DNA of 48,907 nucleotides from NCBI GenBank assembly GCA_016937975.1, contig JAFGVN010000004.1:1-48907 (forward strand), given 5' to 3'. Source of the stretch: Clostridia bacterium. Lineage in GTDB: Bacteria; Bacillota; Clostridia; Peptostreptococcales; Acidaminobacteraceae. The notes beneath the pieces were generated by a model, which saw only the letters and a program-made list of their open reading frames with translations, ran no database searches and was not told the origin of the DNA. Below, piece by piece: positions 17,640-35,182 of this stretch. Each line of letters begins with the position of its first letter. Within the stretch, counting starts at the first letter, position 1. The position numbers and the translations under genes were made by a program.

Positions 17640-18062
17640 ATGATGAAAAAATTTGGTGTCGTTGTTCATCAAAATGATAATAGTGCAGTATTGAGAATTG
17701 CAAGAAGTACTTCTTGTGGTGGTAATTGTAATAAATGTGGCAGTCATTGTGCAGAACAAAGTAAAATTGAAATAAATATAGAAAATAAATTAGGCGCTGA
17801 GATTGGTGATTATGTGGAAGTTGAATCGACATCAAAACGTATTTTAGGTACTGCTTTTTTAGTGTATATTATTCCTGTTTTAACCTTGATTCTGGGTATG
17901 TTATTATCCAATAAAATTTTCAACACATCCAATGAACTTATAGCACTTTTATTTGGTCTTGTGATGATGTTTATAGCATTTATTGGTATCCATCTTTACG
18001 ATCGATACAGTCAGAAGCAACCTATTTTTACGATGACTAAGGTTATTAAAGGGCAAAAGTAA
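17640..18062 (+). CDS. RseC/SoxR-reducing-system-like membrane protein
   Basis: A 140-residue protein. After a short beta segment comes a cysteine cluster, C26-GGN-C30-NK-C33-GSH-C37, then a small soluble region (IENKLGAEIGDYVEVE), then two membrane helices (about residues 75-95 and 100-120). This order is that of the RseC/MucC family, associated with redox control by the Rsx/Rnf-type complexes in other bacteria. The four cysteines could bind an Fe-S cluster or zinc. AGAGGAAG precedes the ATG. The gene is monocistronic, with no Rnf genes nearby in this window. Confidence 0.8.
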   Translation: MMKKFGVVVHQNDNSAVLRIARSTSCGGNCNKCGSHCAEQSKIEINIENKLGAEIGDYVEVESTSKRILGTAFLVYIIPVLTLILGMLLSNKIFNTSNELIALLFGLVMMFIAFIGIHLYDRYSQKQPIFTMTKVIKGQK

Positions 18063-18215: not shown

Positions 18216-18440
18216 GTTTTTAATTCTTTATAAGGACATGCTACTGAATTTTGTAAGGAAACCTTGTTTTTAAGCGCTTTGAATGGAAATCATGATTTTT
18301 CTTAGTACCATTATCCTAGATTAAATATTGGTCCTATTTATAAAGCGTGTAATAAAGGATTTGATGGCGATTAGGTTTCAATCATACTGATGACCTTTAG
18401 GGTAATCACCAATATTGAAAAGAAGTAATTTACTTTTTAT

Positions 18441-18473
18441 TGACACAGTACTGTCACAATAACTTTTTATAAT
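18441..18473 (+). promoter_or_regulatory. activator site and promoter of the export operon
   Basis: TGACACAGTACTGTCACA (18441-18458) contains GACACA and GTCACA as direct repeats with an 11-bp period, and is also partly palindromic. A perfect -10 TATAAT (18468-18473) follows after 9 nt. The correctly spaced -35 position has no good box, which fits a promoter needing an OmpR-type activator. The same element and spacing occur at 32592-32624. Confidence 0.65.
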
Positions 18474-18534: not shown

Positions 18535-19710
18535 ATGAAAAAATTATGGATTGCTATTGTTGCAATAGCACTTATAGGGGCCGGTATTGTCATATATTTA
18601 CCAAAAAATGATGAAAGTGCAACATCAGAAGAAGTGATTAAAGAAATAAATGTGAAACAATCTGATATTGTGATTGATTTTATAGCAGATGGCAATGTGT
18701 ATATTCCAACTGTGGAACAAAAATTTTTAGCAACGGGCATATTGGCTGAGACCTTTGTTCAAGTAGGAGATCTTGTAGAAAAAGGAGATGTAATTGCAAA
18801 ATTAGATACAAGAGAGCTTGAGTTAAAACTTAAGCAAGCTGAATTGTCTTTACAATCTGAAGAAGATAAATTATCACAAAGTGAAAGTGATGCTGTTTTG
18901 GATATTAAGAAGCAGGAATCCGTGGTCTTGGGATTAAGTTATGATTTAAAAGAAGCTGAAGACCTTTTAGCGACCATGAAAACCTATCCTGAATTATATG
19001 CAGCCAGTGTTATTGCTGCTCAAGAAAATAAAGTTTCAGAAATTGGAAGTAATCTTTCGTTACAAAACAGTATTTTATCCAATATAAAAAATGAGAGCAC
19101 CTTAACAAGTAATACGGCTTATGAACAAGCAAAATTAGATATTGAACTGATTCAAATGGATCTTGAGAATGCATATTTATATGCACAAAGCAGTGGCACA
19201 ATTGCCTATTTGAATCAAGAGCTTGGAAGTAACATTACAACAACTACAGTAAGTTTAGTCATCCAAGATACTACTCATCCTCAGGTGATTTCAAATATTT
19301 CAGAATTGGACATTTATCAAGTCTTTGAAGGTCAAAGTGTAAATTTAAGTTTTGACAGTGACTATGGTGTAGCTTTTAAAGGGAACGTATCTTTTGTGAA
19401 TCCGATTCCCAATATCGACAATAACAATATTGTAACTTATGAAGTCATTATTGATTTAATGGAATATCCAGAAAACCTTCGTTCAGGTTTAACCACTATG
19501 GCGAACATCATCTTAAAAGAAAAAGAAGATATTTTAGTGATTCCCAATACAGCAGTATCTATCGTAGACAATAAGCAAATGGTTGAGTTGAAAACAGAAG
19601 AGGGTTACGAAATGGTCAATGTTATCACTGGATTGACTGATGGCATGAGTGTCGAAGTGATTCAAGGTTTGGTACAGGGTGATGTCGTCATAACAAGAAC
19701 ACAGAAATAG
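18535..19710 (+). CDS. MacA/HlyD-like adaptor protein of an ABC exporter
   Basis: A 391-residue membrane-fusion protein. An N-terminal membrane anchor (residues 5-22) is followed by a lipoyl-like half-motif (AETFVQVGDLVEKGDVIAKL), a long coiled-coil hairpin (about 95-215), the second lipoyl half (AYLNQELGSNI), then beta-barrel and membrane-proximal domains ending in VIPNTAV and VQGDVVITRTQK. The family links an inner-membrane transporter to a TolC-like duct. It is the first gene of a six-gene operon (next gene 10 bp downstream), with GGAGGG before the ATG. It should act on the outer face of the cytoplasmic membrane. Confidence 0.88.
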   Translation: MKKLWIAIVAIALIGAGIVIYLPKNDESATSEEVIKEINVKQSDIVIDFIADGNVYIPTVEQKFLATGILAETFVQVGDLVEKGDVIAKLDTRELELKLKQAELSLQSEEDKLSQSESDAVLDIKKQESVVLGLSYDLKEAEDLLATMKTYPELYAASVIAAQENKVSEIGSNLSLQNSILSNIKNESTLTSNTAYEQAKLDIELIQMDLENAYLYAQSSGTIAYLNQELGSNITTTTVSLVIQDTTHPQVISNISELDIYQVFEGQSVNLSFDSDYGVAFKGNVSFVNPIPNIDNNNIVTYEVIIDLMEYPENLRSGLTTMANIILKEKEDILVIPNTAVSIVDNKQMVELKTEEGYEMVNVITGLTDGMSVEVIQGLVQGDVVITRTQK

Positions 19711-19720
19711 GTGATGTATT

Positions 19721-20905
19721 ATGAAATTATCAGAAATATTTAGATCGGTGTTTACCAATATCCTAGCCAACAAGTTTAGAGTCTTCCTTACCATGTTAGG
19801 TATTATTGTTGGTGCTGCTACTATTATTATGGTCGTAGGCATAGGAAAAGCTTCTGAAAAGGCAGTCGAAGATCAGTTTGCCATGCTAAATGTTGGTACT
19901 TTATATATTCAAAGTGGTCCGGGAAGTCAATTTTTATTAACCGAATCCGATGTGGATATGTTAAATGAAAAATCAGAAAACATTTTAGTCTCGACAATAC
20001 TTTTAAGTACTAGAGGTGAAATCAGTTCAAATTATGATTCCTTTGATGGAACCATTGCAGGTGTAACCAATATCTTTGATGATATCAGCAATCTGTCAAT
20101 GTATATGGGTGATTTTGTTACAGAAGATAATGAAGAACGAAGAGAAAGAGTTGCAGTAATTGGTTATACTTTAGCTGAAACTTTATTTCCAGATGATATT
20201 GATATGGCCGTTGGAGAAACCATTACCATTACGGGAAGAAGATACACAGTTATTGGTGTGGTTGATCGAGTAGGTGATTCAATTCAAGGCTTAGCCATTG
20301 ATGAATCTGTGGTGTTGCCGTATTCAACTGCAGAGAATTATGTAGTAGGCTCTTCCACAAAACCTAAAATAATTGCAGTAGCAAAGGATATCAATTCAGT
20401 TGATGCTGCAATCGTTGAAATCGATGAATTATTTAGAGATGAATATAGAGCGATTGGTGGCGCTGATGTTGTCATCAAAGATGCTGGTAGCAAATTGGTT
20501 GCAGCTCAGGACAGTGCAAGGACCATGTCAGTATTATTGATATCTGTTGCGACAATTGTGTTGATTGTTGGTGGCATTGGTATCATGAATGTTTTATTCG
20601 TTTCAGTTAAGGAAAGAACAAAAGAGATTGGTATATTAAAAGCATTAGGTGCAAAAAAGGAAGACATATTGCTTCAGTTTTTATTGGAATCCATTATTAT
20701 AAGCTTTTTAGGTGGTATTTTCGGTATAGTATTAAGCTTTGGTATGCAACCTTTAATGAAATATTTAGAAGTAAGCGTTTTAGTTTCAGTGAATGGATAC
20801 CTTTTGGCTTTGGCCTTTTCAGTAGTTACAGGAACCTTCTTTGGTTTTTATCCTGCAACAAGAGCGGCAGCATTAAAGCCTATAGATGCATTAAGATATG
20901 AATAG
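19721..20905 (+). CDS. MacB-like ABC exporter permease (FtsX fold)
   Basis: A 394-residue permease. The N-terminal helix (LANKFRVFLTMLGIIVGAAT) is followed by a large extracytoplasmic MacB core domain (about residues 50-265), and three C-terminal helices with the FtsX signature VSVKERTKEIGILKALGAKK. Unlike E. coli MacB, the ATPase is a separate protein encoded three genes further on. Such mechanotransmission ABC systems export peptides, macrolides or lipoproteins by driving conformational change across the membrane. It ends LKPIDALRYE, the usual C-terminus. It lies 10 bp after the adaptor gene. Confidence 0.92.
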   Translation: MKLSEIFRSVFTNILANKFRVFLTMLGIIVGAATIIMVVGIGKASEKAVEDQFAMLNVGTLYIQSGPGSQFLLTESDVDMLNEKSENILVSTILLSTRGEISSNYDSFDGTIAGVTNIFDDISNLSMYMGDFVTEDNEERRERVAVIGYTLAETLFPDDIDMAVGETITITGRRYTVIGVVDRVGDSIQGLAIDESVVLPYSTAENYVVGSSTKPKIIAVAKDINSVDAAIVEIDELFRDEYRAIGGADVVIKDAGSKLVAAQDSARTMSVLLISVATIVLIVGGIGIMNVLFVSVKERTKEIGILKALGAKKEDILLQFLLESIIISFLGGIFGIVLSFGMQPLMKYLEVSVLVSVNGYLLALAFSVVTGTFFGFYPATRAAALKPIDALRYE

Positions 20906-20914
20906 AGGAGATAT

Positions 20915-21457
20915 ATGATGAAAAAAATAACAATATTAATTATGATCGGGATATTGGCTTTGAATATGATCAGTTGTAGTTCAAATGAAGATGTAGCGTC
21001 AACAACAGTTAATGAAGTGAGTGTGGTGACTGAAACCGACACCGCTGAAAAGGTTGTTCCAGATCGAAAAGCAGAAATCAGTGGGGTCGTTAAAAACATC
21101 GTTGGCAATGAAGTAACAATTTCTCTCATTGAAAAAGAAACAACAGGAACACAAGATCAATCAAGTACTGAAGAGTTAACAGAGGAAGAAAAGGCTGAAA
21201 AACAAGCGGCAAATCAAGCTTCAAAAGGAAGTAATAGTTCTAGTGGTACTGGCATGACTGATGTAGCATTATCTGGTGAAACAGTAGATATCATTATTCC
21301 TGTTGGAACATCTGTAGTTAAGAGTGATGGTACAGGTGAATTGGCTGAGTTAAATATCGGTGATATCTTTAAAGGTGACACGGTTAAAGTTTGGATTTTA
21401 GAAGGAGGTGAAGATTCAGTACAAATAGCAGAATTCGTACAAGTACTGGATCAGTAA
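20915..21457 (+). CDS. lipoprotein within the export operon
   Basis: A 180-residue protein with signal peptide MMKKITILIMIGILALNM and lipobox ISC, so it should be lipid-anchored outside the membrane. A low-complexity Ser/Thr/Glu region, including EELTEEEKAEKQAANQASKG and a Ser/Gly run, separates two beta-rich parts containing VKNIVGNEVTISLIE and VDIIIPVGTSVVK. I know no family. Being embedded between permease and ATPase genes (9 bp and 1 bp gaps), it is probably an accessory part of the exporter, perhaps a substrate trap or a spacer between adaptor and wall. Confidence 0.75.
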   Translation: MMKKITILIMIGILALNMISCSSNEDVASTTVNEVSVVTETDTAEKVVPDRKAEISGVVKNIVGNEVTISLIEKETTGTQDQSSTEELTEEEKAEKQAANQASKGSNSSSGTGMTDVALSGETVDIIIPVGTSVVKSDGTGELAELNIGDIFKGDTVKVWILEGGEDSVQIAEFVQVLDQ

Positions 21458-21458
21458 T

Positions 21459-22154
21459 ATGAAAAAAATTATTGAAATGAAAGCTATTCGAAAATCCTAC
21501 AAAATGGGTCATAATACATTAGAAGTTCTTAAAGGCATTGATTTAACCATTCAGGAAGGCGAGTTTGTAGCGATTTTAGGACCTTCCGGTTCAGGTAAAT
21601 CAACGATGATGAATATTATTGGCTGCATCGATACCAAAACTGATGGTGATTATATTTTAGATGGAAAAAATATTGAAAAATTTACAGAGAATGAGTTAAG
21701 TTCAATTCGAAATGATAAAATTGGATTTATCTTTCAGAAATTCAATTTACTAGGTCGATTAAGTACTTTAAGAAATGTAGAAATACCATTGCTTCTTAGA
21801 GGTCGTAATCGAAAGGAAGCTAAAAGCGAAGCGATTAGATACTTAGAGATGGTTGGATTGGGAGATCGAATTCATCATAAACCCATTGAGTTGAGTGGTG
21901 GTCAGCAGCAAAGAGTTGCCATTGCAAGGGCTTTAATTGGACAACCTCAATTACTACTGGCAGATGAACCAACAGGAAATCTAGATCAAGAGTCGGGTAA
22001 AGAGATTATGGAGCTGTTTCTTAAATTAAATGAAGAAGGCAATACCATTGTGATGATAACCCATGATGAGAATGTTGCAAAAAAAGCGAAGAGAGTTATT
22101 CGCATATTAGATGGAAAAATTATGGAAGTAACCAAGTCGGAAAAACTGGCGTAG
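21459..22154 (+). CDS. MacB/LolD-type ABC transporter ATPase
   Basis: A 231-residue nucleotide-binding protein with every catalytic motif: Walker A GPSGSGKST, Q-loop FIFQKFNLL, signature LSGGQQQR, Walker B LLLADEPTGNLD and switch His in MITHDE. It should pair with the FtsX-type permease encoded three kilobases upstream in the operon and power export. The start follows the preceding stop by one base; the upstream GGAGG (in the lipoprotein coding end) is distant, so translation is probably coupled. The cytoplasmic protein is of the usual family length. Confidence 0.95.
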   Translation: MKKIIEMKAIRKSYKMGHNTLEVLKGIDLTIQEGEFVAILGPSGSGKSTMMNIIGCIDTKTDGDYILDGKNIEKFTENELSSIRNDKIGFIFQKFNLLGRLSTLRNVEIPLLLRGRNRKEAKSEAIRYLEMVGLGDRIHHKPIELSGGQQQRVAIARALIGQPQLLLADEPTGNLDQESGKEIMELFLKLNEEGNTIVMITHDENVAKKAKRVIRILDGKIMEVTKSEKLA

Positions 22155-22169
22155 AAAATGGGAGGGCTT

Positions 22170-23297
22170 ATGAAGCGATTACTTATAATGACAATCTTGC
22201 TTGTGATGATCTTTCCAGTATCAGTATTTGCAGAAGTAGATTACACTGAAATAAAAGATGATTTGGAAGAAAACAGCAGTGCTTTAAAACTGTTAAAACT
22301 TGAAGAACTGCAAAGCGAGGTAGATATATATGTATCTAATCTGAATGCTTTTTATGCTCAAAGTCGGTTAAGTAAGTTGGAAGAATCACCAAATCCAGTG
22401 AGTGGACTTACTCGAGCAAGTTTAAATTATCAAATTGAAATTTTGCCTCAGTTTGCTTACTACGAATCGGAGCAACTCATACTAGAAGAAAAAGTGTTGA
22501 TGGGTTCCTTGTCATTAGAAGCAAGAAATCTGATCGAGGCTATTATAAAAGCTGCAAATGATGTTTATGAATCTCAGGCATATTTTGAAATACTAAGTAA
22601 AGCATATAACTTGTACCTCCAAGACTTGGAAGCAGGCAATGTGACTACAATTGATGTTTTGAATGCAAAAGTGGATATGATTGAAGCAGAATATGCCATG
22701 GAAGAAAAAATGAGAGTCTTAGACAACCTTTATCTGAGCTTCAATAGTGCATATGGTTATGATTTAAGGGAAAGATTTGATTTTGCAACGGAAACAAAAC
22801 TAGAGGCACCCATTAATGATGTAAAAGCCTATGTGGAAGCAGCTTTTGCAAACAGAATTGAAATCAGAGATTTATGGGCTCAAATAGAAATTCAGAATAA
22901 CATTATCGAATTCTATAATGACACGAATTATCTGATATACACTGAGAATAGGGAAGCTCAAGAAGCTGCTGCGTTTAAAGTAGAACAATTAACTATGGAT
23001 TTGGAAATCATAAAGGACCAGATCCAACTAGAAATATACGCAGCTATGAATACCCTAGATCAATTAGAAGCGGAAATCAAACTCTTGGCAAATGAGATTT
23101 CATCACAAGAAAATCATGTGAATGTCACAGAAATCATGTATAACCTTGGTGAGGTTAAAGCAATGGATTTGGAATTGGCACAATTAGAACTGGTGACCTT
23201 GGAAAATAATATGGATGAATTGATTTTTAATTACAACACACAGAGATTGACATTAAACTATGGGAGTTCATACGGACCAGGAATAGGAGGCAAGTAA
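22170..23297 (+). CDS. TolC-like efflux protein, copy 1
   Basis: A 375-residue exported protein with signal peptide MKRLLIMTILLVMIFPVSVFA. It is almost wholly alpha-helical with heptad-like Leu/Ile/Ala repeats. The TolC-family hallmark is present twice, in LYLQDLEAGNVTTIDVLNAKVD and YNLGEVKAMDLELAQLEL (quoted in part). It is shorter than TolC (about 470 residues), and I see no beta-strand regions that would form an outer-membrane barrel. It may make a helical duct in the wall space rather than an outer-membrane channel. The ATG at 22170 follows GGGAGGG; an in-frame ATG at 22158 is possible. Confidence 0.8.
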   Translation: MKRLLIMTILLVMIFPVSVFAEVDYTEIKDDLEENSSALKLLKLEELQSEVDIYVSNLNAFYAQSRLSKLEESPNPVSGLTRASLNYQIEILPQFAYYESEQLILEEKVLMGSLSLEARNLIEAIIKAANDVYESQAYFEILSKAYNLYLQDLEAGNVTTIDVLNAKVDMIEAEYAMEEKMRVLDNLYLSFNSAYGYDLRERFDFATETKLEAPINDVKAYVEAAFANRIEIRDLWAQIEIQNNIIEFYNDTNYLIYTENREAQEAAAFKVEQLTMDLEIIKDQIQLEIYAAMNTLDQLEAEIKLLANEISSQENHVNVTEIMYNLGEVKAMDLELAQLELVTLENNMDELIFNYNTQRLTLNYGSSYGPGIGGK

Positions 23298-24382
23298 TGA
23301 TTAAGAAAATAGGCGCATTTGTAATCCTTTTCACTTTAGTCATGAATATCACAGTCTTTGCAGAAGAGGAAACCACTGGTTATACCTACGAAGCGTTAAA
23401 AATAGAAGCTATAGAAGATCACTTGGAATTGGATGCTTCTGCTCTAAATCTTGAAATAAAAGAGATGAATTTAGAAGAGATTCTTGAAATTGCGGCGTCA
23501 ACTTATGATGGTCCAATGGACAGAGTAAATTATATAAAAAATATGATTAAAATCTATTCAGATCCATTAACAGCAGAGTTAGCAGTTTATGTAGCCAAAG
23601 CAAATATGGAAAATCAAATTGAATCCATTCAAAATGAGATTTGGATGAATAGTATGAAATATTTGTTGCTTGAGAAAGAGATTTTACTGAATGAAAATTT
23701 ATTGGCTTATGAAAATTATTATTTGAATGTTGTTGAGAAAAAAGTTGCAGCAGGTTTAGTTTCTCAGGACACTTTTGCAAATCAATTGTTGGTAGTTGAA
23801 AATCAGGAGATTAAGGTTAATTTATTGAAAATTGAACGAAATAGTCTTCAAGTTGAAATCAATCAAATGATTGGGGCGCCTTTTGATTTACCGATTGTCA
23901 TTGATGAATCGTTGGAAATCCTTCCCTTTGAAAGTTATGATATGGATACAGTTTACAATGATACTTTTGAAAAGAATATAGAGATTTATGAAAATCAAAT
24001 CCTTGTGCAGTCAAAAGAAATTGTTTTTGATTTATATGCCGATCAATATTTGGAAACCAATAAGGAATATAAGATAGCACTATATGACCTTCAAATCGCT
24101 GAAATTCAGTTGAGCGATGCCAAGTTAAAATATGAGGCGGCATTAAAAACCAGCTATAACGATTATCTGAATGCTTATGAAGCATATGAACTAGCAGTAG
24201 AACAACTTGGATTGGAAAAGGATATTTATGAGCTGTTGCTAAAGGAATATCAAGCAGGTCTTATTGCAGAAGAAATTTTAAAAAAGGCAGAAACCAGTGT
24301 TCAAAAAAGTGAATATAATGTGAGTGCAAATTTAGTTGCCTTTAATCTTGAAAGAATAAGCTTTTTGAGCTTGTTTCAATAG
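23297..24382 (+). CDS. TolC-like efflux protein, copy 2
   Basis: A 361-residue protein with signal peptide MIKKIGAFVILFTLVMNITVFA. It has long amphipathic helices and the TolC-type turn motif in VEKKVAAGLVSQDTFANQLL and again KEYQAGLIAEEILKKAE. Its ATG overlaps the stop of the first copy (TAATG). The two proteins are only distantly alike, suggesting an old duplication and perhaps a hetero-oligomer. As with copy 1, barrel strands are not apparent. It is the last gene of the operon, ending at a strong terminator. Function is inferred from family and context. Confidence 0.78.
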   Translation: MIKKIGAFVILFTLVMNITVFAEEETTGYTYEALKIEAIEDHLELDASALNLEIKEMNLEEILEIAASTYDGPMDRVNYIKNMIKIYSDPLTAELAVYVAKANMENQIESIQNEIWMNSMKYLLLEKEILLNENLLAYENYYLNVVEKKVAAGLVSQDTFANQLLVVENQEIKVNLLKIERNSLQVEINQMIGAPFDLPIVIDESLEILPFESYDMDTVYNDTFEKNIEIYENQILVQSKEIVFDLYADQYLETNKEYKIALYDLQIAEIQLSDAKLKYEAALKTSYNDYLNAYEAYELAVEQLGLEKDIYELLLKEYQAGLIAEEILKKAETSVQKSEYNVSANLVAFNLERISFLSLFQ

Positions 24383-24399
24383 CATTACCCACCAATTTA

Positions 24400-24435
24400 G
24401 AGAAAACTCTTATTCCTTGAATAAGAGTTTTTCTC
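24400..24435 (+). terminator. terminator of the export operon
   Basis: AGAGAAAACTCTTATTC pairs with GAATAAGAGTTTTTCTCT around a 3-nt loop. Confidence 0.9.
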
Positions 24436-24571
24436 TGAATGTTTACCTTTAAAAATTAAAAATATTTAAAGGTATGGTAGAGACGGTGGGATATCCGTTT
24501 TACTTTCAAAGCATTGGGTATATAAATTGAAGAGATAGAGATATTCGTAATGATCATGAAAAGGAGAAAAT

Positions 24572-33751: not shown

Positions 33752-35182
33752 ATGAATCAAGAATTAAAACACAAATGGCATAGTATTTATGGTCAAATAT
33801 TATTTGACCGAAAATTAATGGCTGCATGGAAACATGTGAAAGCTAATAAAGGTTGTGGTGGAATTGATTACGAAACCATAGAAACTTTTCAAGCCGATGA
33901 AGACCAGAAAATAATGGAACTACTAGACGAACTTCGGAAGAAAGAATACAAGCCAAAGCCAGTCAAAAGAGTTATGATACCTAAGAAAAATGGTGGTGAA
34001 AGACCATTAGGCATTCCAGTAATAAAAGATCGTATTGTACAACAAAGCATAGTAAATGTGTTGAGTCCAAAGTTTGAAGATGGTATATTTCACAAATGTT
34101 CATGTGGCTATCGTCCCAATATGGGGATAGAGCGAGTGATGCAAATCATTCTTTGGTACATAGAGCATGGTTATAATCATATTTATGATTGTAACATCAA
34201 AGGATTCTTTGATAATATACCACACAAGAAACTAATGAAGACATTAACCAAATATATAGCTGATGGTACTGTACTAGATATGATATGGAAATGGCTAAAA
34301 TCTGGCTACATGGAAGAAGGAAAGTTTATTGATACAACTTCCGGTACTCAACAGGGAGGCGTTATTTCGCCGCTACTCTCAAACGTCTATCTTAATGAAC
34401 TAGACTGGGCTCTAGATAGGGAAGGTATAAAGTTTGTAAGATACTGCGATGATTTTCTACTATTTGCTAAAAGCGAAGAAGAAATTAAACGAGCGGGAGC
34501 TATTGCAAGAGATGTAATTGAAAAATTAGGACTTGAGATAGCTATCAACAAGACTAAGTTTGTTGACTTTGATAAGGATGATTTCAACTTTGTCGGATTC
34601 AGCTTCAAACATTGGCGTAAGAAGAAAAATAGCGACAACACATACTTCATTGTTGAACCAACCAAAGAGTCCTTCAAAGATTTCAAATACAAAATTAAAA
34701 AGGCTACTCGAAAAACACTCACATTAAGCCAACAAGCTTGGATAGAAAAAGTAAATCCAATCATACGTGGTAAGGTCAATTATTATGCAATCCCACACAA
34801 AGCAGTTGAGAAGAATAAAGCATTTGGTATTGAAAGTCATTGCTTCCTCAAAAGTCTCAGCGGAGAACTACACAAAATTGACTCTTATACAAGACAGCGT
34901 CTAAGAGTGTGTATGCTTCATAAGCATCCTAGTGTGCGTAAGGGTATAACCATGACTTATAAGTGGAACATCGAGTACTTCTGTAGGATAAAGTTAATCC
35001 CCGCAAATTGGTTATATTATAACATCATGTGGGATTATCCTATGGAAATGTATATAGAAAGACAAACTTCGAAGAACAAAAGGAAGTTGAAAAGACAAAT
35101 AGAGCGTTTCAAAAGCCTAGGTAAAGAGTACTATACAAAAGAAAGACTAGACGCCATTACATTTTGTAAGGGTCTAGCCTAA
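33752..35182 (+). CDS. ltrA: group II intron reverse transcriptase/maturase with altered active site
   Basis: A 476-residue intron-encoded protein. The reverse-transcriptase domain has RPLGIPVIKDRIVQQ, the fingers/palm CSCGYRPN, GTQQGGVISPLLSNVYL and the catalytic box Y231-C-D-D234 (usually YADD). Domain X (maturase) has IRGKVNYYAI and a basic helical region. There is no C-terminal HNH endonuclease. In motif A the segment YDCNIKGFFDNI has Asn148 where the family has the metal-binding Asp (D-I-K-G-F-F-D), so DNA synthesis may be lost while splicing help remains. AAGGATAG precedes the ATG, which lies in intron domain IV. Confidence 0.92.
   Translation: MNQELKHKWHSIYGQILFDRKLMAAWKHVKANKGCGGIDYETIETFQADEDQKIMELLDELRKKEYKPKPVKRVMIPKKNGGERPLGIPVIKDRIVQQSIVNVLSPKFEDGIFHKCSCGYRPNMGIERVMQIILWYIEHGYNHIYDCNIKGFFDNIPHKKLMKTLTKYIADGTVLDMIWKWLKSGYMEEGKFIDTTSGTQQGGVISPLLSNVYLNELDWALDREGIKFVRYCDDFLLFAKSEEEIKRAGAIARDVIEKLGLEIAINKTKFVDFDKDDFNFVGFSFKHWRKKKNSDNTYFIVEPTKESFKDFKYKIKKATRKTLTLSQQAWIEKVNPIIRGKVNYYAIPHKAVEKNKAFGIESHCFLKSLSGELHKIDSYTRQRLRVCMLHKHPSVRKGITMTYKWNIEYFCRIKLIPANWLYYNIMWDYPMEMYIERQTSKNKRKLKRQIERFKSLGKEYYTKERLDAITFCKGLA

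Follow-up and report, generated by a model that had tools for sequence, protein, structure and literature searches.

A MacAB-TolC-like export operon with a pair of predicted barrel-less TolC-family proteins in a monoderm Clostridia bacterium

Results

A six-gene export operon with two TolC-family genes

Contig JAFGVN010000004.1 of a Clostridia bacterium of the Acidaminobacteraceae (assembly GCA_016937975.1; 48,907 nucleotides, the whole of which was analysed and is called the window here) carries on its plus strand six genes in one tight block. They encode, in this order, an adaptor, a MacB-type permease, a lipoprotein, an ATPase and two TolC-family proteins, OEP1 and OEP2 (Table 1). The intergenic gaps measure 10, 9, 1 and 3 bp in gene order, and OEP1 and OEP2 overlap by 1 bp. 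An initial annotation, made from the sequence alone, had described a six-gene export operon with short gaps or overlaps; positions, common strand and Pfam families agree with that description. For OEP1 a start at 22170 with a product of 375 aa appears more likely, because positions 22160-22166 read GGGAGGG, and with this start both proteins fit the lengths first given for them (about 375 and 361 residues). At E 0.001 the host genome (4.03 Mb) contains no Pfam OEP match besides these two.

Table 1 Features of the export operon in the window.
Feature	Coordinates	Strand	Length (aa)	Evidence
MacA/HlyD-type adaptor	18535..19710	+	391	Pfam HlyD_D23 1.8e-9, HlyD_3 4.4e-8; NCBIfam RND_mfp
MacB-type permease	19721..20905	+	394	No fused ATPase; MacB_PCD 6.4e-32, FtsX 1.2e-21
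Lipoprotein	20915..21457	+	180	13-row alignment; in all 12 related cassettes
ABC ATPase, MacB/LolD type	21459..22154	+	231	ABC_tran 1.1e-32; best NCBIfam match MacB 2.4e-78, below cut-off
OEP1, TolC-family, predicted barrel-less, first of pair	22158..23297	+		Pfam OEP 1.3e-10; all-helix AF2 model; TolC structural match
OEP2, TolC-family, predicted barrel-less, second of pair	23297..24382	+	361	Pfam OEP 5.7e-7; all-helix AF2 model; TolC structural match
Terminator-like hairpin, operon end	24395..24440	+		-22.8 kcal/mol, z -7.0
Possible promoter/operator	18440..18473	+		TTGACA 18440-18445, TATAAT 18468-18473; weak, read from sequence

The permease combines the MacB core with the FtsX domain and is accompanied by a MacA-type adaptor, as is typical of MacAB. 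The adaptor reaches 95.8 bits with the NCBIfam model RND_mfp (cut-off 94.9) and has a long hairpin region with the tip motif M..YP..Y, conserved in most rows of an 11-row alignment (A6) and invariant in its M. The NCBIfam equivalog cut-offs are not reached, neither that of MacB (966 bits; permease 185.6, ATPase 264 bits) nor that of MacA (342; adaptor 50.3 bits). The MacB model describes a fused protein, so that split permease and ATPase genes cannot reach its cut-off alone. There are also matches to the models LolD, LolCE, DevA and DevB, all four below cut-off.

TolC-family identity and predicted structures of OEP1 and OEP2

The initial annotation had called the last two gene products TolC-like, and this identity is well supported. 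Each has a pair of TolC repeats in which both conserved glycines are present, in line with the two OEP repeats and the TolC helical topology of Pfam OEP. In the family alignment A1, each of the 48 proteins has a Pfam match to OEP and none a match to HlyD (E 0.001); a profile score cleanly separates 55 OEPs from 47 adaptors. The A1 profile finds 28 distinct sequences in the PDB at E 0.01, all of them outer membrane factors by name, with E. coli TolC on top (best E 6.6e-19; 1ek9 8.3e-15).

The same profile covers the E. coli TolC precursor in two blocks, 1-254 and 321-428, between which 66 TolC residues stand against 17 profile positions. We take this stretch of TolC to be the site of the second barrel hairpin. 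The distance between the two conserved glycines points the same way. Among 58 complete OEPs of more than 300 residues from the order of the host, the window included, the 49 that have both glycines space them by 163-183 residues. The control set comprised 28 OEPs from a contig scan with the permease alignment; their records are named and almost all belong to diderm phyla. Here the spacing is 202-239 in 21 of 28, among the matches listed, with no overlap with the order sample. For E. coli TolC a manual count on the aligned sequences gives 218. Judged from these spacings, the segment of the second barrel hairpin is missing in all 49 scorable OEPs of the order sample. A class-wide sample (59 OEPs in 40 regions from 39 of 85 OEP-bearing genomes, with one gene, that of G039, shared with the order sample) had 52 scorable proteins, of which 51 fall at 141-185. 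The single class-wide OEP with a diderm-like spacing (238) is a protein of 720 aa, gene 5 of locus L238 in genome G133, possibly of a different architecture.

AlphaFold2 (AF2) models were computed from alignments A4 and A5, which hold the two window OEPs and 16 diderm relatives. Both models are all-helical, with the helices in TolC order (OEP1: mean pLDDT 71.8, pTM 0.61; OEP2: mean pLDDT 86.8, pTM 0.75), and the coiled-coil part of TolC is intact in both. Neither model contains a β strand of at least three residues, in keeping with the initial remark that no barrel strands were evident, and the 12-strand β-barrel of outer membrane factors, with two hairpins per protomer, is thus not predicted for either protein. 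At the sites of the TolC barrel hairpins the models show turns of 6-8 residues instead (OEP1 76-83 and 256-261; OEP2 68-75 and 250-255). Superposition on TolC (1ek9) gives Z 20.9 for both, with a root mean square deviation of 4.3 over 323 residues for OEP1 and 4.6 over 321 for OEP2; the best match outside the TolC family has Z 9.3 and 8.1, respectively. Foldseek with OEP1 returned outer membrane factors in all of its top 44 rows. On the two models the first barrel hairpin, too, appears to be lost in OEP1 and OEP2, and this loss may extend to other members of the family.

Adaptors and OEPs cross-match, and some Pfam OEP matches are in fact adaptors; OEP1 and OEP2 might therefore be adaptor-like coiled coils that merely resemble TolC. 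We consider this very improbable in view of the uniform OEP and absent HlyD matches, the clean separation of the two groups by score, the paired repeats with both glycines and the Foldseek result for OEP1.

OEP1 and OEP2 begin with a hydrophobic stretch (19-residue hydropathy mean 2.4 and 2.0) followed in both by VFA-E, which by inspection suggests export via a signal peptide. In the mature parts of both proteins no 19-residue hydropathy mean exceeds 1.2.

Many OEPs encoded by the first gene of a pair (in L063, L067 and other loci) have 20-120 extra residues before the first glycine, at the site of the first TolC hairpin; these may form a separate outer cap. Second-gene OEPs mostly do without such residues and count 149-174 residues up to the glycine. 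One monoderm OEP in A1 is fused to the domain Cu_amine_oxidN1, which also occurs in proteins adjoining the OEPs of L078 and L083.

The host envelope

Neither Omp85 nor LpxC was found in any of 61 genomes, the host and 60 relatives of its order; among 14 named genomes that served as positive controls, Omp85 was detected in seven and LpxC in four. In a class-wide sample of 293 genomes, Omp85 matched once at E 1e-3 and in no case over cut-off. The genome of the host contains 58 SLH matches, and 48 of the 61 genomes have at least one. From these results we conclude that the host is a monoderm and that it very probably has an S-layer; the outer membrane with Omp85/BAM that goes with an outer membrane factor is not found here. 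The initial annotation had likewise concluded that there is no outer membrane, arguing from two LtaS-like enzymes in the window. Its conclusion stands on Omp85 and LpxC, and its argument does not: the two proteins match Pfam Sulfatase only, with no NCBIfam match over cut-off, and a Sulfatase match alone was rejected as insufficient proof of a monoderm.

An unrecognised outer membrane holding an ordinary TolC could be suspected from the mere presence of TolC-family proteins, and some Firmicutes are diderm, as stated in the part of PMC5007114 drawn on here. The absence of Omp85 (0/61 in the order and 0/293 over cut-off in the class) and of LpxC (0/61), the missing barrel segments and the low hydropathy of the mature proteins make this extremely improbable. 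Neither barrels in a diderm host nor structures unlike TolC, which the initial annotation had named as findings that would speak against it, were thus encountered.

The lipoprotein and the four-gene ABC cassette

All 12 further permease matches at ≥43% identity were taken, and each locus was fetched. The order adaptor-permease-lipoprotein-ATPase is kept in the window and in 12 of 12 relatives, so the lipoprotein, initially noted as an unexplained extra part, is a fixed and conserved member of the ABC cassette. It carries a Glu/Lys- and Ser/Gly-rich linker and a conserved core, G..V..I.GN..T and GE.....IP.G, with nine invariant residues in a 13-row alignment (A3). No Pfam family matched over cut-off, and a profile search of the PDB gave four weak matches, none useful; the best of them (E 0.0083) covers the end with the signal peptide. 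The pattern reminds us of an OB-like fold, which we mention as an impression.

An OEP pair follows the cassette directly in two of eleven testable cases, the window and L112. The latter belongs to a second genus and has the identical six-gene order, for which the initial annotation had suggested a search; its permease is 75% identical to that of the window, and the OEPs of the two loci are barely similar by BLASTP (E 0.005 and 0.26). The host genome holds a second ABC cassette (G000:C5, L121 8050-12437) with a longer adaptor open reading frame of 645 aa and a related lipoprotein; its contig ends right after the ATPase, so that OEP neighbours could lie off the contig. The host also encodes two full-length RND pumps. 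Because most cassettes stand without OEPs and two RND pumps are present, the OEP pair may work with several pumps or have a role unrelated to pumps.

The cassette adjoins an RND gene in L041, L113, L115 and L122 (which overlaps L076), and this gene's own adaptor is visible in L041, L113, L115 and L076. Between cassette and RND gene, L041, L113 and L122 contain a regulator-like gene of 189 aa with (D/E)KEI..F.AAW near its start, presumably of TetR type.

The cassette might also be a Bce/Ykn-type sensing or defence unit in which adaptor and lipoprotein reach no farther than the wall and no export through a duct takes place. The cassettes without adjoining OEPs would suit such a unit, and Gram-positive MacAB-like systems function without TolC according to the parts of PMC5985334 and PMC5768738 used here. 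We regard it as improbable, since it leaves unexplained why two genera have an OEP pair within the operon and why the TolC-type coiled coil of the pair is intact.

Gene neighbourhoods and the S-layer

Pfam OEP alone, which would count 36 of 61 genomes, was rejected as a census because adaptors cross-match; a profile of 48 checked proteins was used instead at E 1e-12 and finds OEPs in 34 of 61. Within four genes of the OEPs, 75 loci hold SLH genes in 31 cases, RND genes in 19 and MacB-type genes in 10; RND or MacB-type pump genes are present in 29 of 75. Neighbourhoods near contig ends may hide neighbours.

SLH genes are concentrated next to the OEPs: they account for 38 of the 297 genes that lie one or two positions away, against 9 of 497 at distance 3 or more (p 5e-10). 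The SLH model behind this count was built from ten SLH segments of the very neighbourhoods counted, one region was entered twice (L078, L239), and some genomes contribute at least two loci. Across genomes of the order, OEPs occur in 33 of 48 with SLH and in 1 of 13 without (p 9e-5); in the class sample the figures are 72 of 170 and 13 of 123 (p 1e-9), kinship being uncorrected in both. OEP presence in the class was scored on at most six candidates per genome, so these counts may miss OEPs. The 13 OEP-bearing class genomes without an SLH match (E 1e-6) and G036 are exceptions to the S-layer association, unless they use another S-layer anchor.

These numbers lend weight to a different view of the pair, namely that it is a part of the S-layer or wall, be it a spacer, an S-layer pore or a helper of S-layer assembly, which shares the operon and does not dock on the exporter. 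The enrichment of SLH genes beside OEPs, the co-occurrence of both across genomes and the many cassettes without adjoining OEPs all agree with it. We nevertheless hold it to be unlikely, because the pair sits inside the pump operon in the window and in L112, pump genes lie close to OEPs in 29 of 75 loci, the models keep the TolC coiled coil intact, and the 13 class genomes and G036 have an OEP and no SLH match.

Two old lineages of OEP genes

In a tree of 22 family pairs, first and second genes are split with a single change. With 18 more pairs from the class, 40 in all, the split takes three changes; the exceptions are L217, a recent duplication, and L224, where one gene lies between the two OEPs. 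L230 (contig end) and L060 (one gene missed by the open reading frame caller) were left out. The diderm controls form one clade in both trees (23 of 28 used, SH-aLRT 97, with 22 pairs; 7 of 28 used, SH-aLRT 96, with 40 pairs). Support values are SH-aLRT only, identity between the window rows and the remaining rows does not exceed 25%, and many branches are long. Read from these trees, the pair represents two lineages older than the sampled families. This two-sided tree speaks for two different roles or for a mixed tube. The 14 OEPs found in no listed pair fall mostly outside both lineages.

A mirror-tree comparison of first and second genes (38 pairs, L217 and L224 left out) gave r 0.82, with 0 of 999 permutations as high; the nearest partner is identical in just 18 of 38 pairs. 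The correlation was not used as proof of contact between OEP1 and OEP2 because organism kinship is uncontrolled.

Operon boundaries and flanking genes

The hairpin 3' of OEP2 was matched in stability by 0 of 200 shuffles; a simple terminator scan did not report it. Upstream of the adaptor, a perfect 10-bp palindrome, ACAGTACTGT, occupies 18445-18454 between the candidate promoter boxes. Their spacer of 22 nt is too long for the classical type, and a consensus-site scan did not list this candidate. Just 5' of the operon, positions 17640-18062 encode a membrane protein of the RseC/MucC family (Pfam RseC_MucC 2.5e-27). Farther away, an open reading frame of 476 aa at 33752-35182 is reverse transcriptase-like and presumably resembles a group II intron protein.

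Discussion

Proposed function

We consider it fairly probable that the operon encodes a MacAB-type exporter of an S-layered monoderm which is extended outward by a barrel-less pair of TolC-family proteins. The separate ATPase would drive the MacB-type permease, which would push its substrate (most probably a peptide or a lipid-like compound) from the outer side of the membrane into the hexameric funnel of the adaptor. OEP1 and OEP2 would jointly build a tube of helices. This tube would meet the adaptor tip to tip and add about 10 nm to the duct, taking it across the wall in the direction of the S-layer. Lacking a barrel, both proteins would do without BAM and an outer membrane. In OEP2 the longest predicted helix has 76 residues, corresponding to about 110 Å; with the roughly 154 Å modelled for the pneumococcal MacAB-like assembly (PMC5768738), we infer that tip-to-tip docking would bring the duct to about 26 nm. 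This is about the depth of a typical wall. The lipoprotein would be located at the outer face of the membrane as a constant component of the ABC unit, where it might supply substrate or control the pump.

Several observations weigh against this model. On the structural side, residues 60-100 of OEP1, the site of the first hairpin, have pLDDT below 50, glycine spacing bears on the second hairpin only, and the 16 diderm TolC relatives in the AF2 alignments bias toward a TolC-like answer; yet diderm rows would favour a barrel too, and none appeared. On the genomic side, nine of eleven testable cassettes have no adjoining OEP pair (L114 and L121 are cut by contig ends), and the cassette of Christensenella hongkongensis (L124, weak lipoprotein match) has no OEP on its 21-kb locus. 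Of 75 OEP loci, 22 are free of RND, MacB and SLH genes over a distance of four genes, and about 33 hold a lone OEP; with such lone OEPs and those outside both lineages, the pair is not universal. Relatives in the OEP clade of the window (L042, L046, L070, L076) adjoin SLH proteins, so that the pair could have its role in the S-layer and not in this pump.

Beyond the single operon a wider view suggests itself, which we put forward tentatively and with somewhat more doubt than trust: an old two-subunit, barrel-less TolC duct, kept across many families of what are probably Clostridia, may cross the wall, end in the S-layer as a substitute for the outer membrane, and be served by both ABC and RND pumps. 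If the tube does reach the S-layer, monoderms would own envelope-crossing export machines of a kind thought to require two membranes.

Comparison with known systems

E. coli MacAB-TolC shares with the window a MacA-type adaptor, a MacB-type permease and the coiled-coil halves of the TolC family. The window differs by its separate ATPase, the extra lipoprotein, two TolC-family genes without predicted barrels and the absence of an outer membrane. LolCDE and DevAB, which work in diderms, belong to the same ABC superfamily as the window cassette, as the NCBIfam matches below cut-off indicate.

Closer in envelope type are Spr0693-0694-0695 of S. pneumoniae and YknWXYZ of B. subtilis, likewise monoderm MacAB-like systems with an adaptor, a separate ATPase and a proposed tube into the wall zone; in the parts of PMC5768738 and PMC5985334 considered here, no TolC-family protein is named for them, and YknW is called a membrane protein and not a lipoprotein. 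The pneumococcal assembly was modelled to reach about 154 Å above the membrane (PMC5768738, same parts).

The general idea of barrel-omitting TolC-like proteins in monoderm Firmicutes is already in print. The parts of Stubenrauch et al. 2022 (PMC8809574) used here describe secreted TolC-like proteins with an OEP domain in Firmicutes without BAM, propose their seating in the S-layer and report every example from S-layer bacteria. A model of the C. difficile protein shows an omission within the barrel domain, and a modelled hydrophilic barrel domain is still discussed; the 12 examples are treated as single proteins, and a pair of TolC-like genes in one operon is noted in the S6 legend. PMC9145396 lists, in a table, a Filifactor alocis protein with an OEP domain. 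As with the proteins of PMC8809574, the TolC-like genes of the window lie in an operon with an adaptor and inner-membrane parts, in a genome with S-layer genes and no BAM. In contrast, the window OEPs have no predicted barrel strand, and nearly all sampled relatives that could be scored lack the second-hairpin segment; the pairing of two old gene lineages and the lipoprotein cassette do not figure in the parts compared. PMC8809574 asks, in these parts, how monoderm TolC-like proteins assemble without BAM, and the review PMC5985334, in the part considered, what role Gram-positive MacAB-like adaptors play without an outer membrane. A barrel-less paired duct would answer both questions, as there would be no barrel to assemble and a helical tube on which the adaptor could dock. 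Relative to the compared parts of PMC8809574, the present analysis adds loss of the second hairpin, judged from sequence, as a trait of nearly all relatives sampled, a pair that appears to form two old lineages, linkage to SLH at the level of genes, the occurrence of the six-gene operon in a second genus and the constant presence of the lipoprotein in the cassette.

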